A stretch of 64,000 nucleotides of DNA from an uncultured Prevotellaceae bacterium (GTDB lineage: Bacteria > Bacteroidota > Bacteroidia > Bacteroidales > Muribaculaceae): the NCBI GenBank assembly GCA_900317325.1, contig ONGE01000020.1, forward strand, positions 62,001 to 126,000, given 5' to 3'. The translations under genes and the position numbers were made by a program. Under the pieces are notes generated by a model that ran no database searches, had not been told where the DNA came from, and was given only the letters and a program-made list of their open reading frames with translations. The stretch's first letter is position 1. Each line of letters opens with the position of its first letter. Positions 1-43,767 of this stretch are shown here, one piece after another.

Positions 1-1470
1 GACGTTTACAACAAGGGTCTTGAGATCAGCCTGAGCGGTACCCCCGTTCAGCGCGAGAACTTCATTTGGGAAACCGGTATCAATGTCTATGGCAACCGTG
101 GCACCGTGGGTGACCTGGTTAACGGTATCGACGTTATGTACCTGACCGACGTACAGTATGGTGGCGCCAAGGCTGCCAGCTACAACCATGGCAACTTCAT
201 GGGTATCGACGGTACCAAGTGGAACCGCACCAGCGATGGCAAGCTCATCCTCGACAAGAACGGCTTCCCCACCACCGACAGCAAGGCCTATGAGGTCGGC
301 GACCGTGAGGCCAAGTTCCAGGGTGGTTGGAACAACACCTTCACCTTCTTCAAAAACTGGACCTTCAACATGTTGTGGGAGTTCCGTTATGGCGGCGACG
401 TCTTCAACGGCACCAAGTATGCCATGTCGATGAGCGGCGTGAGCAAGCTCAGCGGCGACTGGCGCAACGAGTCCCTCACCATCGATGGTGTGATCGACAC
501 CGGTAACAAGGATGCTAACGGCAATCCTATCTATCAGGACGTGAGCAACACCTGGACTGCTGACAAGAACTATACCTTCAACGGCAACGAGACCAGTGGC
601 TACAACATCATCAAGAGCTACTACACCGGTGCTTACAACTACGAGGTTCGCAACTGGATCACCTACGTGAAGAGCCTGCGCCTGCGCACCATCTCGCTGA
701 CCTACGATGTTCCCCGCACCCTGCTGGCCCGCACCAAGTACATCAAGCGTGCTGCCATCACGGCTTCGGCCAACAACCTGTTGCTGTTCACCAACTACGA
801 CGGTGATCCCGAGGTAGCTGCTTCGGGTGCCGGTATCGGTGGTTCGTCTTCGGTAGGCTTCGACTACTGCGGTGTTCCCGCTACCCGTTCCTATGCTATC
901 GGCGTTAACCTCGTCTTCGGTACCGACCTCACTGCTCCCGCTCGCGTGAACACTGCCGAGCTCGAGCTCCTCAACGGCCAGATCAACGACCTGCGCAACC
1001 AGATGGCTAACGCTCAGAACGCCAGCAACGCCCGCATCGCACAGCTCGAGAGCGACCTCGCTGCTGCCAACCGTGCACTGGCCAACTGCAAGAACGACCT
1101 GAATGCTGCCAAGAACAAGCCCGCAACTGTAGTTGACAACAGCAAGCAGTACATGAACGTGCTCGTTCACTTCCCCGTGAACAAGACCGCCATCGGTGCC
1201 GATCAGCGTCCCAACGTTGAGCGCATCGCTGCTTACATGAAGAGCCATCCCGAGGCTACCTGCGAAATCAAGGGTTACGCTTCGCCCGAGGGCAATCAGG
1301 ACAACAATATCAAGCTCGCTAACGGCCGTGCCGCCAGCGTGAAGGATATGCTCGTCAAGAAGTATGGTATCGCTGCCAACCGCATCAAAGCCGATGGCCA
1401 GGGTATCAGCAAGATGTTTGACGAATTGAGCTGGAACCGTGTTTCCATCTGCGAAATCATCGTTAAGTAA
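1..1470 (+). CDS. SusC/RagA-type TonB-dependent receptor with C-terminal coiled coil and OmpA-like domain (5' partial)
   Basis: This is the C-terminal part of an outer-membrane receptor that imports ligands with its SusD partner, using TonB energy. The frame is open from base 1, so the gene begins before the window; the GTG at 106 is only an internal codon. The final barrel strands (ending near SYAIGVNLVFG, about base 925) resemble SusC proteins, which normally stop there. Here about 180 residues follow: a heptad-like coiled coil (about bases 955-1110, rich in Leu, Ala, Asn) and an OmpA-like domain (about 1135-1467) with GYASPEGN, LANGRAASV and NRVSICEIIVK. A barrel C-terminus faces the periplasm, so the tail should lie there and may touch peptidoglycan (inference). 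The SusD gene starts 32 bp downstream. The tail is nearly the same as that of the receptor ending at 7617. Confidence 0.9.
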   Translation, partial: DVYNKGLEISLSGTPVQRENFIWETGINVYGNRGTVGDLVNGIDVMYLTDVQYGGAKAASYNHGNFMGIDGTKWNRTSDGKLILDKNGFPTTDSKAYEVGDREAKFQGGWNNTFTFFKNWTFNMLWEFRYGGDVFNGTKYAMSMSGVSKLSGDWRNESLTIDGVIDTGNKDANGNPIYQDVSNTWTADKNYTFNGNETSGYNIIKSYYTGAYNYEVRNWITYVKSLRLRTISLTYDVPRTLLARTKYIKRAAITASANNLLLFTNYDGDPEVAASGAGIGGSSSVGFDYCGVPATRSYAIGVNLVFGTDLTAPARVNTAELELLNGQINDLRNQMANAQNASNARIAQLESDLAAANRALANCKNDLNAAKNKPATVVDNSKQYMNVLVHFPVNKTAIGADQRPNVERIAAYMKSHPEATCEIKGYASPEGNQDNNIKLANGRAASVKDMLVKKYGIAANRIKADGQGISKMFDELSWNRVSICEIIVK

Positions 1471-1502: not shown

Positions 1503-3386
1503 ATGAAACTTTTCAAATCAATTATACTGTGCGGCTTGGGCGCTGCGATGTTATCGCTGACCTCTTGCAACGACTGGCTTGACGTGAACGTTGACCCCGA
1601 TAGCCCTTCGGCCGAGTCCACAACCTACGACCAGCGTCTGGCGCACATTCAGTTTTATACCAACAGCGGTCTGCAGTTTGGTGCATGGCGCACCACGATG
1701 GCTATGGGTGACTGGACCCGCAGCAGCAGCAATGGTGGTACTTATATGCAGGCCTCTTATTGGCATCCCGTTGATGGTCAGGTAACTACCGTCTATCAGT
1801 GGTGGTTTGTTGGCGCTTATGCCAACGTGCCCGACATGATCGCTAAGGCCGAGGCCGCCGAGAACTGGCAGTTTGCCGGTGCCGGTTATCTGATCAAGGC
1901 TTATGGCTTCATGGCCATGGCCGACCTCTACGGTGAGATGCCTTACACCCAGGCAGGTGCTGAGCCCGCTACCCCCGAGTATGACACGGGCAAGACCATC
2001 TATCTGGGCTGCTTTGAGTGCATCGACAAGGCTATTGAGTACCTCGAGAAGGGCCAGGGCCAGGATCCCAAACTGCCCACGCTGGCAGCTGGTGACTGGT
2101 GGAACCACGGTGACCTGAACAAGTGGATCAAGCTCGCCTATATGTTGAAGGCCCGCTGGATCAACAAGCTGAACAAGAAGGGTGCCGGTAGCTACAAGGA
2201 CGGTAAGTATGATGCCGACGAGATTCTGCGCTGCCTCGACAAGGCCATGCAGAGCAATGCCGACAACACCATCGTCAACCACACCGATGACAACGGTCCC
2301 ACCCACGACAACTTGGGTTGGGATGAGCCCGTTGACTACTCGCCCCTGTTCTCGGTTAGCGGTATGAACGCTGGCTACATGGCAACCAAGATGCTCTATG
2401 ACAACCTGACCAACTTCGCTGGTAAGGGTGTTGAGGATCCCCGTGCCGACCACATCCTGCCCTGGGCTTACAGTCCCAAAAGGTCAGAGAATGGCATCGA
2501 TGCTGCTGGTGTGAAGTGGAATGGACATTGGCGCCGCACACTGGGCGTTGACATGGCCAGCGAAATCTTCAGCCAGGGCGGTCCCTTGCGCGCTATGTTC
2601 AACACCACCTCCAACAGCTGGTACGTCAGCACCGATAACGAGGCTCGTCTGGGTGATACCGTCTATATCGAGGGTACCAGCGACTGCAAGGGTTACTTCG
2701 CTAACCCCAGCATCCTGTACTGCCGCGCCGGTGGTGGCAAGTTTGAGTCGGCTGAGTCGGGTACGTTCTACACCCGCGTAAGCTCGCCCACCTACATCGG
2801 TACCTATGCCGAGTGCTGCTTCATCAAGGCCGAGACCCTCTTCAAGAAGGGTGACAAGGCTGGCGCTTACGATGCCTACAAGAAGGGTGTCAAGGCCAGC
2901 TGCGAGCTGATGAACGACAAACTGAAAGCATGGATCGCCGAGGATGCTACCCTCGCCACCTGCCCGTCGTTCACCCCGATGACCGAAGATGCCATCAACA
3001 ACTTCGTGGACAACGGCATCGGCACTCAGGCTGAACTCTCACTGGGTCACATCCTCATGCAGAAGCGTATCGCCCTCATGTTCTCCTACGAGATCTGGAA
3101 CGATATGCGTCGCTATGACTTCGACAAGAACATCTTCTTCGGTTGGTCGATTCCTGCTCAGCACTTCAAGGTAGCTGCCGCTATGCTGGCTATCCCCGAC
3201 GGCAAGCAGTATCGCCGCTGGCGTCAGTGCTCGCACGAGTACAACTACAACAGCAAGAACCTGCAGGCCATCGGCAGCCAGGTTCCCGGCGCCCGCATGA
3301 CCGACGGTGAAGGCAAGGAAGTGATGTGGAACCGTCAGGATGACGCTTGGACCATCCCCGTATGGTGGGACAGCAACCAGGAGTAA
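1503..3386 (+). CDS. SusD/RagB-type nutrient-binding outer-membrane lipoprotein
   Basis: This is the surface lipoprotein that caps the adjacent SusC barrel and binds its ligand. The 627-residue protein starts with a lipoprotein signal peptide (MKLFKSIILCGLG...LSLTSC), with Cys near residue 22 as the lipidated residue, followed by the NDWLDVN motif typical of SusD N-termini. The C-terminal part (ELSLGHILMQKRIALMFSYEIWNDMRRYDF, split here by residue numbers about 505-535) matches the SusD-like 'QK...E.W.D.RRYDF' pattern. It lies 32 bp after the receptor stop and is surely in the same operon; a strong terminator follows at 3413. No adjacent enzyme indicates the substrate. Its signal peptide is nearly the same as that of the SusD at 7719, which supports tandem duplication of the pair. 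Confidence 0.93.
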   Translation: MKLFKSIILCGLGAAMLSLTSCNDWLDVNVDPDSPSAESTTYDQRLAHIQFYTNSGLQFGAWRTTMAMGDWTRSSSNGGTYMQASYWHPVDGQVTTVYQWWFVGAYANVPDMIAKAEAAENWQFAGAGYLIKAYGFMAMADLYGEMPYTQAGAEPATPEYDTGKTIYLGCFECIDKAIEYLEKGQGQDPKLPTLAAGDWWNHGDLNKWIKLAYMLKARWINKLNKKGAGSYKDGKYDADEILRCLDKAMQSNADNTIVNHTDDNGPTHDNLGWDEPVDYSPLFSVSGMNAGYMATKMLYDNLTNFAGKGVEDPRADHILPWAYSPKRSENGIDAAGVKWNGHWRRTLGVDMASEIFSQGGPLRAMFNTTSNSWYVSTDNEARLGDTVYIEGTSDCKGYFANPSILYCRAGGGKFESAESGTFYTRVSSPTYIGTYAECCFIKAETLFKKGDKAGAYDAYKKGVKASCELMNDKLKAWIAEDATLATCPSFTPMTEDAINNFVDNGIGTQAELSLGHILMQKRIALMFSYEIWNDMRRYDFDKNIFFGWSIPAQHFKVAAAMLAIPDGKQYRRWRQCSHEYNYNSKNLQAIGSQVPGARMTDGEGKEVMWNRQDDAWTIPVWWDSNQE

Positions 3387-3915: not shown

Positions 3916-6900
3916 ATGAAAAAACAATTAGCACTGCTCTGCACACTGGCGATAGCCATGGGAATTCCCGCTGGACTGGCCCCGAACCACTCCAGCACGG
4001 GTTTCACGGCTGTGGCCCAGAGCAACCGAGTTTCGGGCGTCGTGAAGGACGCCAACGGAGAGCCGATGATTGGCGTTAATGTAAGGGTAAAAGGCACAAA
4101 TACGGGTACGACCACCGATCTGGATGGCCGATATTCGATTAAGGCCGACCCCAACCAGACGCTTGTCTTCTCCTTTGTGGGCTATGATGCAATCGAAGTT
4201 CCTGCGTCACAAGCCGCCAACGTTCAGTTGTCCGAAGGTGCCAACACCCTGCAAGACGTAGTGGTAACGGCCGAGTTCGGTATGAAACGTGTCGCCCGCA
4301 CCGTGGGTTCCTCGGTGCAAAACGTGAAGGCCCAAGACATTATTGAGTCGGGCCGCACCGACTTCATCTCGGCCCTGCAAGGTCGTGTGTCGGGTATGAG
4401 CGTCGTTAGTTCGGGTGGTGCCCCTGGTGCCTCGACGACTGTAGTACTGCGCAGTGCCACGTCACTGAGCGGTAACAACCAGCCGCTGTATGTCATCGAC
4501 GGTATTCCCATGAACAACACCTCGTTCAACCCCACCAGCGGTCTGGCTGTCGAGGATGGTGGTAGCGCCGGTCTGACTCCCCGCTCGACCGACTACTCGT
4601 CGCGTGGTAACGACTTCAACCCCGAGGACATCGAGTCGATGACCGTGCTGAAGGGTGCTGCCGCAGCCGCTCTGTACGGTAGTGACGCATCGAACGGTGC
4701 CATCATCATCACCACCAAGAAAGGCCGTTCGGGCCGCGCTCGCGTGACCTACAGCAACCAGATTACCTGGTCCAAGGCCTATGGTTGGCCCAAGATTCAG
4801 GACAAGTACATCAATGGTGCTTATGGTGCTGCCAACTTCTACTACACCAGCCGCTACGGTTCGTTGTATGACGGCACGATGCCGTTCTTTGACAACACGG
4901 CTGCCGTGCTGCAGACCGGTTTCATGCACCGCCACAACCTGTCGATGGAGGCTGGTAACGACAAGATGTCGGTTCGCGCCAGCGCTTCGTTCTTCGACCA
5001 GGATGGTGTCATCAAGACCACGAGCCTGACCCGTACCAACCTGTCGCTGTCGGGCCGCGCCGAGCTGACCAAGTGGTTGTCGATGGAGGGAAGCATGCAG
5101 TATGTCAACGCCAAGAACGACAAGGCCCTGCGTGGTCTGTACGGTCCCGTTCGCTACAGCTACCGCTGGCCGAGCGTCGATGACATGAGCATCTATCTGG
5201 CTGATGACGGTGCCCACATGAAGTATCCCGCATACTATACCGACACCGACCTGCTGAACCCGCTGTTCGGCTTGAAGAAGAACCTGATGCACGACCAGAC
5301 CGACCGTATCATCAGTGCCTTCTCGCTGAACTTCACGCCGATTGCCCACACCTACCTGCGCCTGCAGATGGGTTGGGACGTGAGCACCTCGACCTATGAG
5401 ACGGGTACCCACCCCTACTATACCTCTTCTGCTAACCAGAGTGTCGATGACAGCAACAACAGCGGTACCTATAACATCACCAAGTACAACACCAACGACC
5501 CGACGCTCAACGTGCTGGCCGGTTACAACAACAGCTGGTGGGACAACAAGTTCTCGCTGGGTGTTCAGGCTGGTTACCACCAGCTGGAGAACGGAGTGAC
5601 CAGCTTGTCATCCTATGGTACTAACTTCAAGGTGATTGACTTCTACAGCATCAACAACTGTACCGAGAGCACCGTGACCAGCAAGAAGCGCTCGACCAAG
5701 CGCCGCGTGCAGGCTATCTCGGGTCAGTTGGAGCTGGGCTTCAACAACATGATCTTCTTGACCGGCCGCTTCCGTAACGACTGGTCGTCGACTCTGCCCA
5801 AGGACAATAACAGCTACTTCTATCCCGCCGGCGAGCTTTCAATCGTGCTGAGCGAGATGAAGTTCATGAAGAATATCAACTTCATCAACTACCTGAAACT
5901 GCGTGGCGCTATCGCCCAGGTAGGTAAGGATGCTCCTGTGCTCTCGATCGATCCCGAACTCGAGCCCACAGGCCTGACTGGTGGCGGCTACAAGTATGGC
6001 TACACCGGTCCCAACCGCAGCCTCAAGCCCGAGATGACCACCTCCTACGAGGCTGGTGTTGAGGCACGCTTCTGGAACGACCGTATCAATGCCGACTTCA
6101 CCTGGTTCCGCACCCACTGCGCCGACCAGATTGTGACCGGCTTCCGCATGAGTTACGCTACCGGTTTCGTCCTCAACAACATGAACGTGGGTACGTTTAA
6201 CACATGGGGCTGGGAAGGCCACGCCGATGTTGACGTAGTCCGCACCCCCGACGTTCGCTGGAATGTGGGCTTTAACGTATCCCACACCAATAGTGAGGTC
6301 GTTTACCTGCCCGAGAACTTGACTGAGTTCTACAACGCCTATACCTGGAACTCAGGTAACATCCGCAACGGTGTGATGAAGGGACATCCCATCAGCACCG
6401 TTACCGGTCGCGCCTACGAGCGCAACTCCAAGGGTCAGATCCTGATCGACCCGACCACCGGTCTGCCCCGCACCAGTGCCGACTGGAGCATCCTGGGCAA
6501 CCGCGAACCCAAACTGCGCTTCGGTATCACCACCGCCTTGAGCGTGAAGAACTGGCGCCTGAGTGCCATGTTCCAGGGCCGCTACCATGCCGACGTTGTC
6601 AACGCTACCATGCGCGACATGTTGGGCACCGGTCTGAACTGGCTGTCGGTTGACATGCGTGAGAAGGGATTCGTGGTATTTGACGGCGTGCTCTACGACG
6701 GCAAGCAGGAGAGTGCCAATCCCACCAAGAACACCATCGCCGTGAACCTGGGCGAGTATGGCTCTTACACCTACACCGGTGGCGATGAGGACTGGATCCA
6801 GCACAAGATCAACTACATCCGCTGCCAGGAGCTGCGTTTGGCTTACGTCTTCTCGCACAACTGGCTCAACCGCGTGACCAAGGGTACCGTTCAGAATGCC

Positions 6901-7617
6901 AGCATCTATGCATCGGCCAACGACTTGTTCACCATCACCAACTACACGGGTACCGACGTTGCCGGTAACACCCTGTCGGCTGCTGCTGGTGGTACTGGTG
7001 GTGAGGGTTATGACTGCTGGTCGCTGCCCACCCCGCGCAGCTACTCGGTAGGTCTGAGTGTGACCTTCGGCAGCAACGACGAGGCTGTCAAGCCCGCCTA
7101 CACCAACACCAACGTGCTCAACGAGCAGATCAATGACCTGCGCGCTCAGCTCGCCAACGCCGAGAACAACTTCAACGGCCGTCTGGCCCAGCTACAGAGT
7201 GACCTCGATGCCGCCAACCGTGCACTGGCCAACTGCAAGAACGACCTGAATGCTGCCAAGAACGTGAAACCCGCCGTAATTGACAACAGCAAGCAGTACA
7301 TGAACATCCTGGTTCACTACCCCGTTAACAAGACCGCCGTCGGCGTTGATCAGCGTCCCAATGTGGAGCGCATCGCTGCTTACATGAAGAGCCATCCCGA
7401 GGCCACCTGCGTCATCAAGGGTTATGCTTCGCCCGAGGGCAATCAGGACAACAACATCAAGCTCGCTAACGGCCGCGCCGCCAGCGTGAAGGATATGCTC
7501 GTCAACAAGTATGGTATCGCCGCCAACCGCATCAAAGCCGATGGCCAGGGTATCAGCAACATGTTTGACGAATTGAGCTGGAACCGTGTTTCGATCTGCG
7601 AAATCATCGTGAAGTAA
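3916..7617 (+). CDS. SusC/RagA-type TonB-dependent receptor with C-terminal coiled coil and OmpA-like domain
   Basis: This is a full-length (1233 aa) outer-membrane TonB-dependent importer. Domains in order: signal peptide (cleavage probably after AVAQ, about residue 36); carboxypeptidase-D regulatory-like domain (about 38-115, ending VFSFVGYD); plug with LYVIDGIPMNN and DIESMTVLKGAAAAALYG (about 115-270); barrel to about 1055. An extra tail of about 175 residues follows: coiled coil (about 1065-1120, including ANRALANCKNDLNAAKN) and OmpA-like domain (about 1124-1233, GYASPEGN, LANGRAASV). ATG 3916 is preferred over GTG 3910 because it opens directly with MKKQLALLC. The partner SusD at 7719 is frameshifted. 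The last ~400 bp are almost the same as the end of the gene stopping at 1470. Calling the tail a peptidoglycan anchor is inference. Confidence 0.95.
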   Translation: MKKQLALLCTLAIAMGIPAGLAPNHSSTGFTAVAQSNRVSGVVKDANGEPMIGVNVRVKGTNTGTTTDLDGRYSIKADPNQTLVFSFVGYDAIEVPASQAANVQLSEGANTLQDVVVTAEFGMKRVARTVGSSVQNVKAQDIIESGRTDFISALQGRVSGMSVVSSGGAPGASTTVVLRSATSLSGNNQPLYVIDGIPMNNTSFNPTSGLAVEDGGSAGLTPRSTDYSSRGNDFNPEDIESMTVLKGAAAAALYGSDASNGAIIITTKKGRSGRARVTYSNQITWSKAYGWPKIQDKYINGAYGAANFYYTSRYGSLYDGTMPFFDNTAAVLQTGFMHRHNLSMEAGNDKMSVRASASFFDQDGVIKTTSLTRTNLSLSGRAELTKWLSMEGSMQYVNAKNDKALRGLYGPVRYSYRWPSVDDMSIYLADDGAHMKYPAYYTDTDLLNPLFGLKKNLMHDQTDRIISAFSLNFTPIAHTYLRLQMGWDVSTSTYETGTHPYYTSSANQSVDDSNNSGTYNITKYNTNDPTLNVLAGYNNSWWDNKFSLGVQAGYHQLENGVTSLSSYGTNFKVIDFYSINNCTESTVTSKKRSTKRRVQAISGQLELGFNNMIFLTGRFRNDWSSTLPKDNNSYFYPAGELSIVLSEMKFMKNINFINYLKLRGAIAQVGKDAPVLSIDPELEPTGLTGGGYKYGYTGPNRSLKPEMTTSYEAGVEARFWNDRINADFTWFRTHCADQIVTGFRMSYATGFVLNNMNVGTFNTWGWEGHADVDVVRTPDVRWNVGFNVSHTNSEVVYLPENLTEFYNAYTWNSGNIRNGVMKGHPISTVTGRAYERNSKGQILIDPTTGLPRTSADWSILGNREPKLRFGITTALSVKNWRLSAMFQGRYHADVVNATMRDMLGTGLNWLSVDMREKGFVVFDGVLYDGKQESANPTKNTIAVNLGEYGSYTYTGGDEDWIQHKINYIRCQELRLAYVFSHNWLNRVTKGTVQNASIYASANDLFTITNYTGTDVAGNTLSAAAGGTGGEGYDCWSLPTPRSYSVGLSVTFGSNDEAVKPAYTNTNVLNEQINDLRAQLANAENNFNGRLAQLQSDLDAANRALANCKNDLNAAKNVKPAVIDNSKQYMNILVHYPVNKTAVGVDQRPNVERIAAYMKSHPEATCVIKGYASPEGNQDNNIKLANGRAASVKDMLVNKYGIAANRIKADGQGISNMFDELSWNRVSICEIIVK

Positions 7618-7718: not shown

Positions 7719-9568
7719 ATGAAATCATTCAAATCAATTATACTGTGTGCGCTGGCTTGCTTGGCTATGGGACTGACATCCTGCGACGACTACCTGGATG
7801 TGAACAAGAACACCGACGCCCCTGACTATGTGGAGGGTTACCTCTATCTGGCAGGTATTCAGCAAGCCTACCAGGGCATCTACTGGGATATCCGTGCCAT
7901 TGGACCGCTCACCCAGATGATGGGTACCTCGAGCTACACCAACTTTGCCAACCACTACTACACCGCGGCCAGCGATAGGGTATGAACCTGGAGAACATGA
8001 TCAACCAGAGCGTTGAGGCCGAGAACTGGACATTGGCCGGTATCGGACTGGCCATGAAGGCTTTCTCTTGGGACCTGCTGACCAAGATCAACGGTGAGGC
8101 TCCCATGAAGCAGGCCTATGAGGCAGGTCGTCTCTCGCATGAGTACGACTACCAGTACGACATCTATCCCCAGGTGCGCGAGTGGGCCTATAAGGCTATC
8201 GAGTACTTGCAGAAGGAGGACAATTCGGCCTACGGTAATCGTATCAAGAACAACGACTTCATCTATGGCGGCGATAAGGACAAGTGGATTAAGTTCTGCT
8301 ATGCTGTAATCGCCCGTAACCTGGTCTCCTTGACCAACAAGAAGGACTTCAGGGAGAAATACTACAATGAGTTCCTCGAGGCTGTCGGCAAGGCTTTTGC
8401 CAGCAACGATGACAACGCTACCCTGAAGATTGCAGGTGGCGGTGCCGATGCTGCCGAGAGTGGCTACAACAACTTCTGGGGCCCCTATCGTGGCAACCTG
8501 ACCTACAGCTACTTCCAGCACGACTATGCCGTGCAGTTGTTCACGGGTACCATCCGCAAGTATGACGAGCAGGGCAACTACATCCAGACCGAGGATACCC
8601 TGCCCCTGAACAAGCAGCACTATCCCTACCAGCTGCTCGACAAGCAGATCACCAGCGACACCCTGCCCGATGCCGGTCACTTCGACCCGCGCCGCCTCGT
8701 GAAGTTGGCGACTACCGACAGCAGCAACTATGCCACCATCGCCGACCGTGAGGTGCTCCGCAGCCTCTACTATGTGGGCTCGGGCTTTACCGGTGCTACC
8801 GGTCCCATCGGCACAGCGCCCTCGTTCTGGGGCCGCAATGCCGTGTCCAACTCCGTCTATGATGGTTCAGGCCACTGGATCTATCGCGACGACTGCCCCT
8901 ATATCATGGCCACCTATGCCGAGCTGCTGTTTGATCTGGCCGAGGTTCAGTTCAAGTTTGGCAGCAAGAGCGACGCATTCGAGACCTGGAAGAAGGCTCT
9001 TCAAGCCGATATGGACTTCACCTCCAGTTACATTGTAGCCGGTACGGTTAACGGCAACTACCGTCAGGGCGACCGCGTGACCAAGGCCACCTTCAACACC
9101 CTAGCCCAGGAATACCTGAATGGCCCCTACGTGGCTGGCTTGCCCATGAGCGACTTCTCGCTCTCGCACATCATGATGCAGAAGTATCTGGCCCTCTATC
9201 CTTGGGGCGCTCCCGAGGCATGGGTTGACCTGCGTAAGTACTTCTATGACATCCAGTACACGGGCGATTATCCCAAGTACCTCAATGGCTGGGACAAGAC
9301 GACACTTGACCAGAAACGCGATGAGGATCCTACCAAGGTTTACAAGGGATTCTGGCTACAACCCGCTCAGGTACAGGGTCGCAAGAGCGCCTTTAACAAG
9401 GACAACAACGGTTCGCCTTGCTTCCGCCTGCGTCCGCGTTACAACTCTGAGTACATGTGGAACAAGACCAACCTGGATGCCCTCTTGCCCATTGGCGGTC
9501 AAGAACTGGATTACCAGTGCTCAATCATGTGGTTCTGCTATCCTGGCGATATGCCCACTACAAGATGA
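7719..9568 (+). pseudogene. SusD/RagB-type lipoprotein, broken by a short deletion and frameshift
   Basis: Partner of the receptor at 3916. An N-terminal piece (7719-7985) has lipoprotein signal MKSFKSIILCALACLAMGLTSC and CDDYLDVN, then shifts frame at about 7975 and stops. The rest continues in another frame (7982-9568, MNLENMINQSVEAENW...). Against the SusD at 1503, about 13 residues (in the region QVTTVYQWWFVGAY) are missing at the junction. The frame change requires a lost length of 1 modulo 3, so roughly 37 or 40 bp. The remainder looks intact through HIMMQKYLALYPWGAPEAWVDLRKYFYD. It may be a true lesion or an assembly error; both halves keep good coding character. ATG 7982 could only give a product without a signal peptide. 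Confidence 0.8.
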
Positions 9569-9601
9569 TGTTTTATTAATTGATCTAAAAATTCAATGAC
9601 T

Positions 9602-10471
9602 ATGAAATATTTCAAATATATAGCATTATTGCTGCTGGTGGCAGTGACGATGGGCTCCTGTGACAAGAAGGACGTCTCCTATATGGCAGAGCCCGTTGAT
9701 GAGTCGGCAAAAGCATACATCCAAGTCGGCTATTACGAGCCAGTCACCGCTGGTGCAGCCAATTACATGTACTACATCGACATCAATGGTGTCGAGTATG
9801 GCAACGACGGAGCCACCTTCCTGGCTACCTTCAATACGGTTCCTTCGGGCGGCACCAACCGCTACTATGCTGTGGATGCCGGTAACGTGAACATCAAGCT
9901 GCATCGTCGAGTGAAGGTGGGTGAAACACCCGAGGGAGAACCCATTTATGAGTATCCTGTTGTTTATGACCAGAACGTGACCTATTGCCTGTATGTGCAT
10001 GACCTGAACAAGGCGCCCATCCCCATCGAGATGACGCCCGCTCCTGAGTTCGGCAAGGCTCTTGACACCGACTCGCTGTGCCGCGTACACTTCGTCAACC
10101 TGCTCTACGAGGCCGACGGAACGCCCTACACAGGCAAGGTACAGTATGGTGTTCAGAACCTGGACACCAAGGAGTATGAGCCTGTGGGCAAGCCCATTGG
10201 CTTCGGTGAGAGTACCGATTGGTTCACTGTAAAGATCCGCAAGACCGTTTACAACAGCTCTGGTTCGCAGCGCCGCGAGGTTTGCCTCTTCGCCGTGGAC
10301 AACAGTGGCAAGGTTACCGGTAAGCTCCCCTACACCTTGGCCAACGGCAATCAGGGTGAGTTCACCGACTACTGGACCTGGTACATCGGCCGTGCTTATC
10401 GTCAGATTGCCGCCGGTAACTGCGGCAGCAAGAGCATCCGCTGCACGCTCTATCAGTTCGTGATCGAGTAA
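9602..10471 (+). CDS. Putative surface lipoprotein of the SusC/SusD operon, unknown function
   Basis: This is a 289-residue protein with a lipoprotein signal (MKYFKYIALLLLVAVTMGSC, lipidated Cys near residue 20). ATG 9602 is chosen over ATG 9596 because it starts directly with the signal peptide, as in neighbouring genes. It follows the broken SusD by 33 bp and precedes a terminator, so it is the last gene of the second SusC/SusD unit. Such third genes usually encode auxiliary surface ligand-binding lipoproteins. The early region (YMYYIDINGVEYGNDGATFL) resembles the DUF4397-type beta domains found in such proteins, a weak family call. No catalytic motif is visible. The first pair in this window has no matching third gene. 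Confidence 0.8.
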   Translation: MKYFKYIALLLLVAVTMGSCDKKDVSYMAEPVDESAKAYIQVGYYEPVTAGAANYMYYIDINGVEYGNDGATFLATFNTVPSGGTNRYYAVDAGNVNIKLHRRVKVGETPEGEPIYEYPVVYDQNVTYCLYVHDLNKAPIPIEMTPAPEFGKALDTDSLCRVHFVNLLYEADGTPYTGKVQYGVQNLDTKEYEPVGKPIGFGESTDWFTVKIRKTVYNSSGSQRREVCLFAVDNSGKVTGKLPYTLANGNQGEFTDYWTWYIGRAYRQIAAGNCGSKSIRCTLYQFVIE

Positions 10472-12101: not shown

Positions 12102-15100
12102 TTAAAATTTCAAGTTAACGCCAAGGGTGAAAGTCTTGCCCAGCGGGGTTTCCCAACCGCGGGTTCCATACTGGTTCACCTCGGGATCGGCATCCTTGTA
12201 CTTGCTAAAAGTGAGCAAGTTAGTGGCGTTAAAGTAAATGCGGGCTCCCTGCATGTAAATTTTCGAGACAAGGGCCTTGGGCAGGTTGTAGCCAATGCTG
12301 ACATTCTTGAGGCGCAGGAAACTGGCATTGCAGATGTGGCGTGAAGAATACTGCATGGCATCCTCCAGGTCAATACCACGAATCATGGGCTCGCTACCGT
12401 TGTGATTCTCGGCAGTCCACATGTTGTCATAGTAGTTCTTGGAGCGGATGCGTTCCCAGTAGTAACCATCATCGGCCACATCCTTGTAAGCACCATCATA
12501 GAGGCTTCCACCAATCTTATAGATGAAGTTGGCAGCCAGTTCAATGCCCTTATAACTCAAAGTGGTGTTGAGACCTCCTGTAGCAACGGGAATGGCATTA
12601 CCAATAATCGTACTGTTGGCTTTTTTATAGTCATAGGTCGCTCCACGGCCGTTGTAAATAAAGTCACCTGTCTGGTCATCTTCAGGGGCATTGACATAAT
12701 AAACGCTGGCACCATTTGACGGATCCACCCCAGCCCATTCATAGCCATAAAATGCCAATGTTGATTCACCCTCACGATAGATGTACTGTGCGCGATCATC
12801 GTCACCGGTGGGGTCATACCAGATAATGTCTGCTCCATTATACAGTTTTTTGACCTTGCTGGTAAGGAAAGTGGCGTTGAGCGATGCTGTCCACAACCAA
12901 CCGTGGTTGTTAATGATGTCATAGCTCACTTCGGTTTCCAAACCGTGGTTGTTGATACGTCCTATATTGCGCAGGGTTGATGAGAATCCCGTGACACGTG
13001 TGATGGGCATATCCTGAAGCAGGTTCTTGGATGTGCGGTTGAAGTACTCAATGCTACCACGCAGACGATTGCTCCAGAATCCGAAGTCGATGCCCACATT
13101 ATAGGTGTAGTTGGTCTCCCATGACAAGTCATTGTCGGCAAGGGTGGAAAGAGTGCCGCCCGGGTCACCCATGTACTTAGTGTTGTAAGTGATGAGGTTC
13201 ATGTAGCCGTAATTGTTGGTAGGCAAGGTACCATTCACACCATATGACATGCGCAGCCTGAGGGTGCTCACATTTTCCAGCGACTCCATGAAACTCTCGT
13301 GCTTGATATTCCATGAACCAGCAAACGACCAGAAGTTACCCCAGCGTGAATTGCGGCTCAACTTAGATGAACCATCACGGCGGAAACTTGCTGAAGCAAA
13401 ATATTTGCCTGCATACTGGTAGTCGGCCTTGCTAAGGAACGAAACGAGTGAATTACCCCATTGGTAGCCCGATGCTTCGGTGCTGCCAGCAGTGCTCACG
13501 GTGTGGAGCGTACTGGTGGGCAGATTGGTACCTGTTGAGCGTGTGAAATCGGTCTTGTTCTTCTCGGCTTCAAAGCCAGCCATCAATTGTACGTTGTGGT
13601 CGCCAAAACTCTGGTTGTAATTGGCTGTAGTGCTTGATACAATCTTCTCATAGATCGTGCGCATCTCATGCACTCTGCCATTATCGGACGAGGCTGAGAA
13701 GTGGTCGGCGCTGAAGTAGATGTGATCCTTAACAGCAGTGTTGTCATAGGAGAAAATCGACTTAACGTCAAGTACAGGCAACAGATGCAAGGTGAGAGCT
13801 TCGGTGGCATTGAACTTGTTGTTCTGTGCCTTGTTTTCCCACTGCTTGTTGTAGTAGAGCGCATTGTAGGCATAACTGCCATAACGGCTGGTCCAATCTT
13901 CGCCTGTCGCAAAGTCGGTAGGCCAGTAAAGCCCCCAAAGCAGGTTGCGGGTCTGCATGAACAAATTATTGCCAGTGTTGCGAGTGTCGTTGTAGCCCTC
14001 AGTGGTCGTGCGACTGGCGCTGACGTTGGAAGACAACTCGAGGAATTTGCCAGCCTTGGCAGTCAGGTTGATGCGTCCGCTGAAGCGGTCAAAATTGTTG
14101 ATGCGGATACGGCCCTCATCGCGGGTGTATGCAAACGAGGTGTAGTAGTTAACACTAGGAGTTGCACCGCTCACAGCGAAGTCATAGTTCTGGAAGGTGG
14201 CAGTGCGGAAATAGGCTTTGTCCCAGTCGAAGTATTTCCCGGCTCTACCCGAGTTGTTGTAGTCGCTGATGATAATCGGCGCATTCAGGCCAACACCCTC
14301 GGTGGAGAAGGCATAGCCATGCTTGTTGAACCTGCGGTTGAGCTGCCCCAAGGAATAAGAATTAGCAGCTTCATCGCTGCTGCCCCCGGAGGTTTTATAA
14401 TCATGGAATACTTTGTACAGCATTTCCACCTGCTGCTCAGTCTTGGCGGGCTCATAGTTTTTAGTTGCCCACGATGGCGTGAAACCCACCGATATATTCA
14501 AGTCAACATGGGTCTTGCCTTGGGAGCCTTTCTTTGTTGTGATGAGAATAACACCATTAGCAGCGCGTGAACCGTACAGTGACGATGCGGCAGCGTCCTT
14601 AAGCACAGAGATAGACTCGATGTCGTTAGGGCTAAGCGAATTCATCACGTTGTTGGTTGAGTAGATATAGTCACTCATTTGTCCAACGTCACCGCTGGTA
14701 ACGGGCACACCATCGATGACATAAAGGGGCTCATTGCTCGCGTTCATTGACCCGATACCGCGGATGCGGATGCTCGGGGCCGAACCAGCCTGACCGCTAC
14801 TGTTGGAGACCTGGAGGCCCGCAACGCGTCCATTGAGCGCATTCTCAAAAGTGGTGATGGGGATGTCCTTGAGCGCATTTTGGCCTACCATACTGGCCGA
14901 TCCGCTGTAACTGCTTTTCTTGGCAGTGCCATAAGCGACAACGATTACCTCGTTCAGATCATGAGGAGATTCACTCATGCGAACCTCGATAGAAGTTTTA
15001 CCCTCCACGTCATGCTCCTGTGAAAGAAAACCAATGTAGTCAAATGTCAGCGTTGCTCCTGGAGAACACTTGATGGAAAAGCGACCATCGGCATCAGTCA

Positions 15101-15257
15101 TTGTAGCCGTAGAAGTTCCCTTAACATGGACGCTAACTCCCATCAGGGGTTCGTCATGGTCGTCGAGCACTATCCCAGAAAATGTCTGGCCGCTCTGTGC
15201 CATTGCATTGATGAAACTGATCATCAACACAAATACTAGAATTAAGATTCTTTTCAT
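12102..15257 (-). CDS. SusC/RagA-type TonB-dependent receptor
   Basis: A 1051-residue TonB-dependent outer-membrane receptor of standard SusC length. Order: signal peptide (MKRILILVFVLMISFINAMAQ), carboxypeptidase-D regulatory-like domain (FSGIVLDDHDEPLMGVSV, about 25-105), plug with PLYVIDGVPVTSG and DIESISVLKDAAASSLYGSR (about 110-250), then the barrel, ending with GKTFTLGVNLKF. It has no coiled-coil or OmpA tail, unlike the receptors ending at 1470 and 7617. It is the first gene of a two-gene operon with the SusD at 10593. The leader is AT-rich with a candidate promoter at 15325-15355. No sigma/anti-sigma or hybrid sensor gene is nearby. Confidence 0.95.
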   Translation of the reverse strand: MKRILILVFVLMISFINAMAQSGQTFSGIVLDDHDEPLMGVSVHVKGTSTATMTDADGRFSIKCSPGATLTFDYIGFLSQEHDVEGKTSIEVRMSESPHDLNEVIVVAYGTAKKSSYSGSASMVGQNALKDIPITTFENALNGRVAGLQVSNSSGQAGSAPSIRIRGIGSMNASNEPLYVIDGVPVTSGDVGQMSDYIYSTNNVMNSLSPNDIESISVLKDAAASSLYGSRAANGVILITTKKGSQGKTHVDLNISVGFTPSWATKNYEPAKTEQQVEMLYKVFHDYKTSGGSSDEAANSYSLGQLNRRFNKHGYAFSTEGVGLNAPIIISDYNNSGRAGKYFDWDKAYFRTATFQNYDFAVSGATPSVNYYTSFAYTRDEGRIRINNFDRFSGRINLTAKAGKFLELSSNVSASRTTTEGYNDTRNTGNNLFMQTRNLLWGLYWPTDFATGEDWTSRYGSYAYNALYYNKQWENKAQNNKFNATEALTLHLLPVLDVKSIFSYDNTAVKDHIYFSADHFSASSDNGRVHEMRTIYEKIVSSTTANYNQSFGDHNVQLMAGFEAEKNKTDFTRSTGTNLPTSTLHTVSTAGSTEASGYQWGNSLVSFLSKADYQYAGKYFASASFRRDGSSKLSRNSRWGNFWSFAGSWNIKHESFMESLENVSTLRLRMSYGVNGTLPTNNYGYMNLITYNTKYMGDPGGTLSTLADNDLSWETNYTYNVGIDFGFWSNRLRGSIEYFNRTSKNLLQDMPITRVTGFSSTLRNIGRINNHGLETEVSYDIINNHGWLWTASLNATFLTSKVKKLYNGADIIWYDPTGDDDRAQYIYREGESTLAFYGYEWAGVDPSNGASVYYVNAPEDDQTGDFIYNGRGATYDYKKANSTIIGNAIPVATGGLNTTLSYKGIELAANFIYKIGGSLYDGAYKDVADDGYYWERIRSKNYYDNMWTAENHNGSEPMIRGIDLEDAMQYSSRHICNASFLRLKNVSIGYNLPKALVSKIYMQGARIYFNATNLLTFSKYKDADPEVNQYGTRGWETPLGKTFTLGVNLKF

Positions 15258-39006: not shown

Positions 39007-40656
39007 TTACAACAACTGGGGATGCACCCTCTTGTAGGCACCGTTATAGTCGGTTTCCTTCAAGGGAACCTCCCATACCCAGTTGTTCACCTCATTGGGC
39101 ATAATCGTGATAGCAACAGCAGCGTGTGCATTGCCACCCTGAGCAAAGCTGTGACGAATAACGGGCAGTTTCCAACGCTTAAGGTCACTCCACTGGAAGC
39201 CTTCGCCCCAGAGCTCAAGTGCACGGTAGTCGGCAATCTCGTTGAACAGGTCTTGACCGGTCTTGTCGCAGGTGTAACCGGGGTTGCGGCCCGAACCGGC
39301 GTTCAAGCGAACGAGGGCTTCCTGAGCATTGGCAGGTTGGTTCAAGAAGTAGTAGCACTCAGCCTCGATAAGAAGCATCTCACTGGTGCGGATGTAGGGC
39401 AGATAGCCAACACCCGGGGTGTCGAAGACGTAGAACTTCAAGTGTGCACCCAGGTGATATACACCAGAAGAGTAGGGCTCACTCAGGCCGGGAGCTGCAT
39501 GCTCCTGAACGTAGTTGTAAGCCTTCATGTAAGCTTCCACATCGGAGTATGACAAGCCGGCGGTCAAACCAATGTAACCGTAGGTCTGGTCAACCTGAGC
39601 GGGATCACTGCCATCGATGCCCAGACCGCTCTCGGTGAGGAACAACGACTTGCGGAAGTCCTCGTCGGGAATGCGGTTGATGAGCTCACGGCCGATGGTA
39701 CCAGCACCGTTCTGGCTGTTGGAAGCATAGTAGCCGTTGCAGCTGTACTGGGTACCGTAGCTCCAGTACCAGTTGTTCTCATCGGCACTGCCATAGCTAC
39801 CGAGAATCCACTCACTGGTGGGACGGCAGAAACCAGCAGCATAAGCATCATTGCTCATCAAGGGATAACCATCCTCGGCCAGCTTAGCATGGTTGAGGGC
39901 AGTCTGATAGTCCTCCTTGTAGAGGGCAGCACGGGCATAAACAGCGTGTGCACAATTCAGGTTAGGAGTCCAGCAGTCACTGGCAGCACGGTCAACTTCG
40001 CTCTCGTCGAACAGCTTGATAGCCTCGTCCAGATCCTTATAAATCTGAGCATAAACCTCGGCCATGGTCGAGGGAGCGAGATCACCGGTAGACTCGTCAA
40101 GACGCAGGGGCACACCCTGTGAACTACCATTATTGGAGTCTTTCCAGCGCTGGCAGTAGTAGTGGAGCAACTTCTCATAGCCATAGGCACGGAAGGTCAG
40201 GGCCGAACCCTTGATGAACTTCTTGTCAGCCTCACTGCCCTCGGCATTGTCAATGCGATTGATGATCACATTAGCCTGGGTAATGATCTGATAGTAGTAG
40301 TACCAAGCATAGTGGTTGTAAATGCTGCTCTTATTGGTGTGGAAGGTCTGATTGTGGATAGGAGCCCAACCAGATGCATACTGATTGTAATTGTAGTCCT
40401 GGCTAGGATAGTTCTCATACAGACGCATGATGGCATTCTCACCACAGAAACCCTGTGAATAGTTACCATGCTGGATGGTCATCGTCTTAGCTACACCGTT
40501 CAATGCCTTGTAGGCATTATCGACAGTTGCAATGGCCGAAACATCACTGATCGATTCGGTGGGTTTTGTCTCGAGATAGTCTTCACCACATGAGGTCATG
40601 AGCATTGCAGATCCTAACAGAAGACCACTCAATAAAACTTTACTTATATTTTTCAT
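39007..40656 (-). CDS. SusD/RagB-type nutrient-binding outer-membrane lipoprotein
   Basis: A 549-residue SusD-family lipoprotein, partner of the SusC at 40703. The start at 40656 (MKNISKVLLSGLLLGSAMLMTSC) gives a lipoprotein signal with Cys near residue 23, then GEDYLETKPTES; the upstream ATG 40668 adds only four residues. The C-terminal part shows RTSEMLLIEAECYYFLNQP and ALELWGEGFQWSDLKRWKLP, typical of RagB/SusD. It lies 46 bp after the SusC stop. It appears intact although its SusC partner is frameshifted. No linked enzyme gives the substrate. Confidence 0.93.
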   Translation of the reverse strand: MKNISKVLLSGLLLGSAMLMTSCGEDYLETKPTESISDVSAIATVDNAYKALNGVAKTMTIQHGNYSQGFCGENAIMRLYENYPSQDYNYNQYASGWAPIHNQTFHTNKSSIYNHYAWYYYYQIITQANVIINRIDNAEGSEADKKFIKGSALTFRAYGYEKLLHYYCQRWKDSNNGSSQGVPLRLDESTGDLAPSTMAEVYAQIYKDLDEAIKLFDESEVDRAASDCWTPNLNCAHAVYARAALYKEDYQTALNHAKLAEDGYPLMSNDAYAAGFCRPTSEWILGSYGSADENNWYWSYGTQYSCNGYYASNSQNGAGTIGRELINRIPDEDFRKSLFLTESGLGIDGSDPAQVDQTYGYIGLTAGLSYSDVEAYMKAYNYVQEHAAPGLSEPYSSGVYHLGAHLKFYVFDTPGVGYLPYIRTSEMLLIEAECYYFLNQPANAQEALVRLNAGSGRNPGYTCDKTGQDLFNEIADYRALELWGEGFQWSDLKRWKLPVIRHSFAQGGNAHAAVAITIMPNEVNNWVWEVPLKETDYNGAYKRVHPQLL

Positions 40657-40702
40657 AATGAGTTTCATTTAGAAATTAATGGTTAATTGATCATCTGATT
40701 TA

Positions 40703-43700
40703 TCAGAACTGGAACTGAAGACCGAAGTTGAACACGCGAGCGGTAACATAGGTGTTATCAGAACCACCGCTGAAATTGTACTGGGGGTTCACACCCTTGC
40801 GGGAAGTGAACGTAGCCAAGTTCTCAACACCAGCAGTGAGGGTGAGACCCTGCATACCAATCTTGTTCATCAACAGCTTGGGCACTGAGTAGCTCAAGGA
40901 GATGTTCTTCACTACAAAGTAGGAAGCGCTGGTCAGCCAGCGGTCACTGGTAGCATTGTTATAGGTGCTGTACTCAAAGTCGAGCTGAGGCAGACCCTTA
41001 GGATCAATGCGGTTGGGTGAATTCTCAGTCATACCGGCGGGAACACCGTTCCAAGACTTGGCCAAGTCAACGTGGTTAGCACTTGCCGAAGAAGCCGAGT
41101 TGGTCGACATCAGAGTCTGGTAAGCCGAGTCGTAAAGCTTGCCACCCAGGCTATAGGTGAACAGAGCGTTCAGAGCAAAGCCCTTGAATTGCAGAACAGA
41201 GTTGAATGAACCGAAGAACCAGGGGTGAGCAGTACCTGCCCAGTCACGCTTGCCATAGGAGCCAGGCATGGTGGTGTAGGTCTCGTCACCGATGGTAACG
41301 GTCTCACCAGCAGCCTCAGCGCGCTCGGCCATTTCGGGATCCAGGGTGTACAGCGAGCGACCGGTCATCTGGTCAACGCCGACAAAGTGATAGGTGTAGA
41401 ACTCATAGGGGTCATGACCCTCGGAGTAGTTCTGCTGGCCATGGAGAATGTCCTTGCCGTCAGGAAGCTTCTTGATTTTGCTCTTCATGAAGGTACCCTC
41501 GGTCGACAGCGTCCAGTTGAGGTCGCGGTTGCGGATGACATCAGCGCTCAGCGAGATCTCGATACCGCGGTTAGAAATGGTACCGATGTTCTTGTAGATG
41601 CTCATGTTGTAGTCATCACCCCAAACGAACGAACCAGCCGACAGGGGCAGGGGAACTGCGAACAACAGGTCCTTGTTGCGCTTGTCAAACAGAACGAAGT
41701 TGAAGTTCAGGCGATTAAACAGGCGACCCTCAATACCGAAGTCGATATTCTGGCAGGTCTCCCACTTGATATCCTCGGCCGAGAGGCTCTGCTTCATGAA
41801 AGCAGCGCTACCGGCGTTCTTCTCAATGTAATAAAGTGCCTGGTAAGCATAGAGAAGAAGTTACCCCAGCGGTTCTTCTTGGCAAAGCGTGAAGAACCAT
41901 CACGACGGAACGAGAAATCAGCGAAGTATTTCTCGTGGTAGTTGTAACGAGCACGACCCAGATAGGACTCGGTCTTGTCCTCGTCATCCGAACCCAGGAA
42001 GTAGGAGTTGGTCTGGAAGTTACCGGGGGTGTAGATACCATCGGCAGCCGAACCGGTGTTCATGCCATAGGCCGAACGCATGTTGTACTCATAGTTCTCA
42101 TGAGCAGCCATGATGTCGATGTGATGAACATCGAACTCACGCGACCAGTTCAAGATTTCCTGAGCGGTGCGGGTATTGTACTCATAAGCATAGCTGGTCA
42201 GACGACCATTGTTGGTAGAACCATCACCAATGAACGGGTTGTTGTAGTTACGGCGATTGGTGTTGGAGTGCATGAAGTCGGCCTTCAACGTGATCGAGAA
42301 GCCTGCAGGCAGAGTAAAGGTACCATAGGCCATGCCCTCGACAACGGCGCGACGACGACGGTCGAAGTCCTTGCGCAGCTCAAAGGCGATGTTGCGGTTG
42401 TCCAGATAAGACGACTCGGTATCGTACTGCTTCTCACCATTCTCGTCAAGCAGGAAGCTGCCATCGGGGTTGTGCAGGAACAGAGGATAAACAGGAGCCA
42501 TGTAACGGGCTACATAGAAGGGGTTAGCATAGTAGTTACCGGTTGCATTGTCGTTGAAGTTACGGGTTGCATAGGTACCACTCAGGTTAATACCGGTCTT
42601 GAACCAGTCACTAGGAGTGAAGTTGGTGTTGATACGACCAGTGAAACGCTCATAGGCGCTGGCATAGATATAACCCTTCTCGTTGGTGTAACCAGCCGAA
42701 GCATATACATTGTACTTCTCGCCACCAGCGGTGCCCGAGAGGCTGTAGTCCTGACGATAACCAGTGCGCTCAACGTCCTTTTCCCAATCCAGATCGGTAT
42801 AGCCGGGCAATACCTGGGCAATCAGATTACCGTTGGCATCGAACAGCTTATCGTCGGGGGAATTGTAGATGTTCTTGCGAGCATAGTCACCAATCAAGTG
42901 CTCGGTAGCATACTGGTTAGCAGCAGCCTGCTCCATACCCATGCTTCCGTTCACGGCAAAGTTCCTCATGGCAAGCCATGAAGCCTCCATCCACTGGTCA
43001 GCACCCATGCGCTCATACTCAGCGATACCACGCTTGTACATACCCTGGTTGATGCGCAGGGTTACACTGGGCTTGTTGCTGTAGGAACCCTTCTTGGTGG
43101 TAATCAGAACGACACCGTTAGCAGCACGGTTACCATACAGGGCTGCCGAGGCAGCGTCCTTCAGCACGCTCATGCTCTCGATATCAACGGGGTTGATCTC
43201 GGCGATGTTACCGTCGAAGGCCACACCATCAACAACATACAGAGGTGAGCTCGAACCGGTGATACTACCGATACCACGGATGCGGATGTTGGGAGCGGCA
43301 CCAGGCTCACCATAGGTGTTGTTCACCTGGATACCAGGGGTGCTACCCTCAAGCGCTGCAGTAACCGAAGAACCGATGCGGTCCTTGATCTTCTTCTCGT
43401 CAACTACCGAGATAGAACCGGTAATCGACTGGCGCTTTGCGCTACCGTAAGCGACTACAACAACCTCATCAAGGCTCTGACCAGAGTCGGTCAACTTAAT
43501 AAGCATTTGAGAGGAAACCTCAACCTGACGTGTTGCATAGCCAACGTAGGATACATTGACATACTTTACATGATCAGGTAAAATCAGTGTAAAATGACCA
43601 TCAACATCGGTTGCAGTACCCTGGTTAACACCCTCGCCTTGGATTGTAGCTCCAATCAGGGGTTCACCATTGGCTGCATCCACTACTTGTCCACTGATTG

Positions 43701-43767
43701 TGCGGTCGGCATAGGCCGACAGTGCCATGAAGCACATCGCAAACAATAATAGAAATAGCTTCTTCAT
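40703..43767 (-). pseudogene. SusC/RagA-type TonB-dependent receptor, broken by internal deletion and frameshift
   Basis: The N-terminal part (43767 down to about 41838) has signal peptide MKKLFLLLFAMCFMALSAYA, carboxypeptidase-D-like domain, plug (PLYVVDGVAFDGN, DIESMSVLKDAASAALYGNR) and half the barrel, ending in frame at RWGNFFS; it then runs 18 wrong-frame residues to a stop at 41794. The C-terminal part resumes in another frame at YAYQALYYIEKNAGS and continues to 40703. Against the SusC at 12102, about 37-40 codons between the RWGNFFS-like and YAYQ-like positions are missing; the frame change requires a loss of 1 modulo 3. A truncated barrel would not function. A real mutation or an assembly error are both possible; the paired SusD is intact. 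Confidence 0.82.

Follow-up and report, generated by a model that had tools for sequence, protein, structure and literature searches.

Results

Tailed SusC genes at the left edge of the window

The window analysed here is a stretch of 64,000 nucleotides (G000:C26:62001-126000) from the 3.47-Mb genome, assembled in 44 contigs, of an uncultured Prevotellaceae bacterium. Frame 1 of its + strand is open from base 1 to a stop codon at 1468-1470 and encodes the last 489 residues (P0001) of a SusC-type protein, copy 1, whose start lies outside the window; the complete gene is found at L006:14703-18470 and encodes 1255 aa counted from the MKK start. The SusC/RagA profile TIGR04056 matches residues 2-306 of P0001, corresponding to the C-terminal part of the barrel (1..918, + strand), and stops there. 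Beyond the last barrel strand the protein continues for 183 residues, of which about 55 form a coil and about 105 an OmpA domain. A short linker leads into the coiled-coil spacer (tail residues 8-62; 952..1116, + strand), and this spacer and the OmpA domain (tail residues 75-179; 1153..1467, + strand) are followed on the same strand by the gene for the lipoprotein partner SusD at 1503..3386 (PF12771, E 8e-29; PF12741, E 1.2e-23).

A second gene of the same build, copy 2, lies at 3916-7617 on the + strand. Its signal peptide, CarboxypepD-like domain, plug and barrel span 3916..7068 (TIGR04056, 625 bits against a curated cut-off of 368.25; PF13715, PF07715 and PF00593), and TIGR04056 stops at residue 1051 of the 1233 residues of P0002. 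The remaining tail of 182 residues comprises a coiled-coil spacer at 7108..7257 and an OmpA domain at 7300..7614 (both + strand). A SusD-like match adjoins this copy as well (7719..9568, + strand), in two overlapping frames of 88 and 528 aa with PF12771 on the second; at the same position, the SusD2 frames of 4/4 relatives opened were intact (628-639 aa). The small lipoprotein gene 3' of the copy-2 pair (9596..10471, + strand), for which no Pfam match was obtained at E 1, is likewise present in 4/4 relatives opened.

Copy 3 (L006:10404-14270), again with the same build, lies just left of the window on the opposite strand, so that three tailed genes occur within about 14 kb. All three copies score above the TIGR04056 cut-off and contain the PF07715 plug and the PF13715 carboxypeptidase-like domain. 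Two more SusC genes inside the window have no tail. One of them, at 12102..15257 on the - strand, consists of plug and barrel without an OmpA domain and ends in ...FTLGVNLKF, providing an in-window control. The other (40703-43767) is split into frames of 657 and 364 aa and has a SusD gene after it (39007-40668). Across the genome, TIGR04056 gave 43 matches, 16 of them above the cut-off, and a search with the tail gave five: the three fused frames, a 420-aa frame (60% identical) and a distant frame of 421 aa.

The tail matches OmpA in profile and predicted fold

The preliminary description had proposed that a SusC-type receptor is fused here to a coil and an OmpA-like domain, and had suggested profile searches and structure prediction as checks; both bear the proposal out. 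PF00691 scored above its gathering threshold of 27.2 bits with the tails of copy 1 (49.1 bits) and copy 2 (44.3 bits) and with the whole protein of copy 3 (48.7 bits). Since TIGR04056 ends at the last strand and PF00691 covers the remainder, the tail is not ordinary barrel or plug sequence. The small barrel of an OmpA porin was not found ahead of the tail, which follows instead on some 1000 residues of SusC plug and barrel. One correction concerns the coil, described earlier as running for about 180 residues before the OmpA domain: that length belongs to the whole tail, the coil itself being about 55 residues long.

An AlphaFold2 model of the copy-1 tail, computed from 53 aligned sequences (the structure alignments contained 58 (A3) and 53 (A4) of 67 tails), had a mean pLDDT of 85.5 and a pTM of 0.56. 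It predicts one long helix (residues 8-62, pLDDT mostly 88-96) followed by a strand (75-81), a helix (93-105), a strand (111-117), a helix (123-144), a strand (152-159), a short helix and a strand (172-178), the alternation of strands and helices typical of OmpA. The top Foldseek rows for this model were Pseudomonas aeruginosa OprF (5u1h) and Acinetobacter baumannii OmpA (3td3, 3td5), with a probability of 1.00 and a TM-score of about 0.7 by target length. The best-scoring PDB sequence for the copy-1 tail was the OmpA-c-like domain of a 'Major outer membrane protein' (9uu2; TM-score 0.80 by target length), which has no transporter fusion in its PDB listing and whose loop, unlike that of the tail, has Asp and is one residue longer. 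A full-length model of mature copy 2 was weak (pLDDT 60); it placed strands up to residue 1017, a helix at 1030-1079 and then the OmpA elements in the same order. Along the coil, large hydrophobic residues recur every 3.5-3.67 residues, a heptad-like periodicity that 0/2000 shuffles matched in strength for each of the three copies from this genome.

Fused frames recur in public genomes of one genus

A scan of public genomes found 142 tail relatives, of which 79 loci were kept. Intact fused frames longer than 1100 aa were present at 65 of these, 11 were cut by a contig end and three were closed but short; the same architecture is thus found in complete SusC proteins elsewhere, as the preliminary description had suggested looking for. 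Judged by their titles, the named genomes with fusions are all metagenome assemblies or uncultured isolates. Sources named in the record titles are gut compartments of goat, sheep, water buffalo and roe deer, the other records carrying isolate codes only.

The unusual build that had been claimed for the receptor is matched by its narrow distribution. By hand count, at least 37 of the 101 genomes of the genus match the tail in a frame that reaches 1000 aa; in one further genome (G027) the strong tail match lies, among the matches listed, in a 417-aa frame only. Among the matches listed for 297 genomes of the family, frames longer than 1000 aa all belong to this genus. Searches with the copy-1 tail revealed no frame longer than 960 aa outside its own genome in 198 genomes of the order (E 1e-15, 14 rows) or in 99 genomes of the phylum (E 1e-6), searches in which frames of 824-960 aa were opened in part and which a very unlike OmpA domain would escape. 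An independent fusion in the order was also sought with PF00691 in 23 genomes and rejected: two frames longer than 1000 aa occurred among the matches listed, both in one genome (G367), and neither is SusC-like by eye. We found no report of a SusC-OmpA fusion in the open-licence literature; both the transporter family and the anchor domain are known, and it is their combination that lacks a report there.

One module on four SusC families

The barrels of 64 of the 65 full-length loci, together with the three from our genome, fall into four families, SusC1, SusC2, SusC3 and SusC4, with mean identities of 80-93% within and 23-33% between families. The tails are far more alike: mean identity is 87-91% within families, 82-83% among those of SusC1, SusC2 and SusC4, and 69-70% between these and SusC3. 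Likewise, at fourfold sites compared between families, barrels agree at 51-57% and tails at 60-75%. The common ancestor of the tails must therefore be far younger than that of the barrels.

Orthologs were counted in barrel-only searches of the 101 genus genomes and tallied by hand. SusC1 was matched in 58 genomes, 26 with the tail (three in broken frames), 29 without and three incomplete; SusC2 in 39, 18 with the tail (one in a broken frame), 18 without, two incomplete or unclear (G061 being placed as unclear) and one only 36% identical. For SusC3, 76 genomes were matched and both tailed and tail-less forms were present, including a tailed subgroup at 53% identity. For SusC4, matched in 49 genomes, tailed proteins were at least 80% identical, tail-less ones 63-66%, and more distant ones near 40%. 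The best match to the SusC4 barrel in our own genome reached 33%, which rules out a fourth tailed family there. All 11 tail-less frames that were opened finish at the last strand (...FGVNLTF, ...VGLSVTF, ...FGLQIDF, ...FGIQIDI), from which it follows that the module was added exactly after that strand. Among the families compared by hand, no genome mixed tailed and tail-less states except G018, in which a SusC1-like gene (54% identical) lacks the tail and genes of other families carry it. Since each of the four families has both tailed and tail-less orthologs, the same module was fitted to four importers in one lineage, and we take the addition of one OmpA module to four divergent SusC families in a single lineage as shown at the level of sequence comparison.

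The tail derives from an OmpA of the same lineage

The free OmpA of this genome (L007:3656-4912, 418-420 aa; PF00691, 58.0 bits) is 58-60% identical to the copy-1 tail and has the same coil and domain, preceded by a small N-terminal part that we take to be a signal peptide and a small barrel, where the tailed copies have SusC. In alignment A1, the SusC tails have 11 extra coil residues (tail residues 25-36) compared with this porin, a difference in length that leaves the coil in phase.

We built a tree of 88 rows, 67 SusC tails and 21 OmpAs, with IQ-TREE. The tails came from 64 of the 65 full-length loci, L123 being left out for want of a coil-motif match, and from the three own copies. In this tree, in which the bootstrap had not settled and whose midpoint root placed OmpAs of other genera at the base, all 67 SusC tails fall into a single clade (99/96). 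The sister group consists of nine OmpAs (98/98): G073 contributes one, and the other eight are from genomes that have a fused SusC. Both groups together (100/99) are nested among other OmpAs of the genus. A single clade that is sister to the lineage's OmpAs implies a single copying event, with the lineage's own OmpA as a donor that was kept, and we regard this origin, as read from the tree, as shown. G073 (L140, L156) has an OmpA of the fused-lineage type, yet no fused SusC is among its matches listed; the fused SusC was possibly lost, or there is a gap in the assembly.

Two further OmpA arrangements were observed. A second OmpA-like protein in our own genome (L008:2884-4128, G000:C19) has the loop GWADNYTG, which keeps the Asp, and scored 25.8 bits, just below the Pfam OmpA cut-off of 27.2. 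A genome of another genus in the same family has two free OmpA genes in tandem (G200:C12:36595-38432); Pgm6 and Pgm7 of Porphyromonas gingivalis are also encoded by tandem OmpA genes.

Exchange between neighbouring copies and selection on the tail

SusC1 and SusC2 are tandem neighbours in our genome. At fourfold sites, SusC1 and SusC2 tails agree more closely when they come from the same genome (0.754) than when they come from different genomes (0.675; nine genomes), an excess reached in at most 1 of 20000 permutations. The other five family pairs showed no significant same-genome excess (p 0.12 to 0.65). Individual loci with discordant parts were also found: L080 has a SusC3 barrel and a tail that groups with those of SusC1, SusC2 and SusC4 (100/97), and L131, the SusC1 gene of G066, has a SusC3-like end by eye. 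That the tails of neighbouring copies still exchange is, on these sequence patterns, established. The ratio dN/dS was 0.17-0.21 for the tail and 0.11-0.28 for the barrels (40 pairs per family), showing that the tail is under purifying selection.

Residues at the peptidoglycan-contact sites

The diaminopimelate-binding residues of A. baumannii OmpA are Asp271 and Arg286 (PMC5974059). Aligned to 3td3, the Asp site of copy 1 is occupied by Ser118 (1282-1284, + strand) and the Arg site by Arg133 (1327-1329, + strand). The loop of the SusC tails reads GYAS-P-E-G or GYAS-K-D/E-G, with Ser at the Asp271 site and, two positions further, an acidic residue. Asp was not found at the Asp271 position in any of the 66 tails scored, all of which have Ser; L070 did not fit the loop motif, and L159 had no match in the coil-periodicity and loop comparison. 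Arg occupies the Arg286 position in 67/67 tails. The A. baumannii OmpA and P. aeruginosa OprF domains, the best profile and fold matches, thus share the contacting Arg with the tails but have Asp at the diaminopimelate site where the tails have Ser.

The preliminary description had noted that the Asp of classic OmpA is replaced (YAS), and this holds throughout the tails scored; the replacement is, however, not specific to the fusion. An S-x-[E/D]-G loop, with other middle residues, is present in 21/21 OmpAs from this genus and five other genera of the family, proteins that had been picked as best tail matches. Among other OmpAs, 2/2 from the family and 3/5 from the order have GYAD and a longer loop, and the other 2/5 from the order have GYASPEG; relatives from the class and phylum have GHTD in 3/4 cases and GFASQEG in 1/4, the latter at class level. 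Because donor-type OmpAs share the loop of the tails, the Ser represents an older OmpA variant and not a change made for the fusion.

Discussion

The fusion of a SusC barrel to a coil and an OmpA domain is genuine; it is conserved and under selection. The tailed copies share with SusC/RagA transporters (TIGR04056) the carboxypeptidase-like domain, plug, barrel and a SusD gene directly 3', and have tail-less orthologs among them; they differ in having about 183 extra residues.

The C-terminus of an outer-membrane barrel is periplasmic, as the preliminary description had pointed out. The tail would hang into the periplasm, where its 55-residue helix, about 80 angstrom long if straight, could extend in the direction of the cell wall; the OmpA domain would hold peptidoglycan, fixing the SusC/SusD pair in place and perhaps keeping it near the TonB/ExbD machinery. 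The domain may bind as the donor OmpA does; our guess is that Arg133 and the acidic residue two after Ser118 replace the Asp/Arg pair. Tethering of SusC/SusD complexes to peptidoglycan is the best-supported function of the tail, and we consider it a probable one. It is favoured by the OmpA profile, by a predicted fold whose nearest solved relatives are peptidoglycan-binding domains, by the heptad helix and by the origin from the lineage's own OmpA, as well as by the occurrence of four families with and without the tail, the tail's low dN/dS and the Arg in every tail. Counted against it are the Ser in place of the diaminopimelate-binding Asp in all 66 tails scored, the low confidence of the full-length model, the restriction of the named fused genomes to metagenome assemblies and uncultured isolates, and the case of G073, with its OmpA of this type and no fused SusC listed.

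The main rival to the tether makes the coil the working part: a coiled-coil oligomer would link SusC with free OmpA, or several SusC copies among themselves, so that different SusC/SusD pairs would be clustered with OmpA, while the OmpA domain simply follows or dimerises. Several observations fit this. The coil of the donor OmpA is of the same kind, those of SusC1, SusC2 and SusC4 have stayed similar, and with the Asp lost, peptidoglycan binding becomes a less convincing purpose. Bacteroidales OmpA-like proteins Pgm6 and Pgm7 form heterotrimers (PMC6112661), and PF16331, a model of a trimerisation domain, has a weak match to the donor coil, at 20.5 bits, a score below its cut-off of 30.1. However, conservation of the OmpA domain is strong and extends to Arg133, more than a domain merely carried along would require, and the 11 extra residues of the SusC coil mean that its register with the OmpA coil is not the same. 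We regard the oligomer as a serious but unlikely explanation.

It is less likely still that the tail was added by chance, spread by recombination between neighbours and is merely tolerated. The close spacing of the tailed genes in our genome and the same-genome likeness of the tandem SusC1 and SusC2 would fit such a course, but the dN/dS of the tail is similar to that of the barrels, and in this lineage the tail is on all four families, with no mixture of states seen other than the SusC1-like gene of G018. A part in biogenesis or stability, in which the domain would help the barrel to assemble or resist turnover without positioning it, seems to us very improbable: the OmpA barrel also ends internally, followed by the same domain, so that a barrel can do with a signal that is not at its C-terminus, but intact tail-less orthologs exist in all four families and the barrels therefore need no such help. 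Finally, an assembly join of a SusC gene to an OmpA gene, a possibility that the preliminary description had raised, can be dismissed with near certainty, for although the genomes were assembled from metagenomes and the window contains a SusC and a SusD with broken frames, intact fused frames are carried by many separate assemblies (65 of 79 loci, and at least 37 of 101 genus genomes).

Returning to the tether, the fuller account would be a transferable anchor: the periplasmic part of OmpA was duplicated a single time in one lineage, became attached to four divergent SusC/SusD systems and is still passed among them. Uptake sites would thereby be held at the peptidoglycan, and perhaps also, by way of the coil, be linked to OmpA or to one another, where they would otherwise drift in the outer membrane. 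We give this account, taken as a whole, an even chance of being right.

SusC/SusD systems are a main uptake route of Bacteroidota, and the tailed copies bear on the positioning of these complexes with respect to cell wall and TonB motor. At four loci, related species differ in whether the importer they share carries the presumed wall anchor, which makes them a natural set for asking if tethering affects uptake. The tail is also a clear case of a single domain spreading among paralogous membrane proteins.
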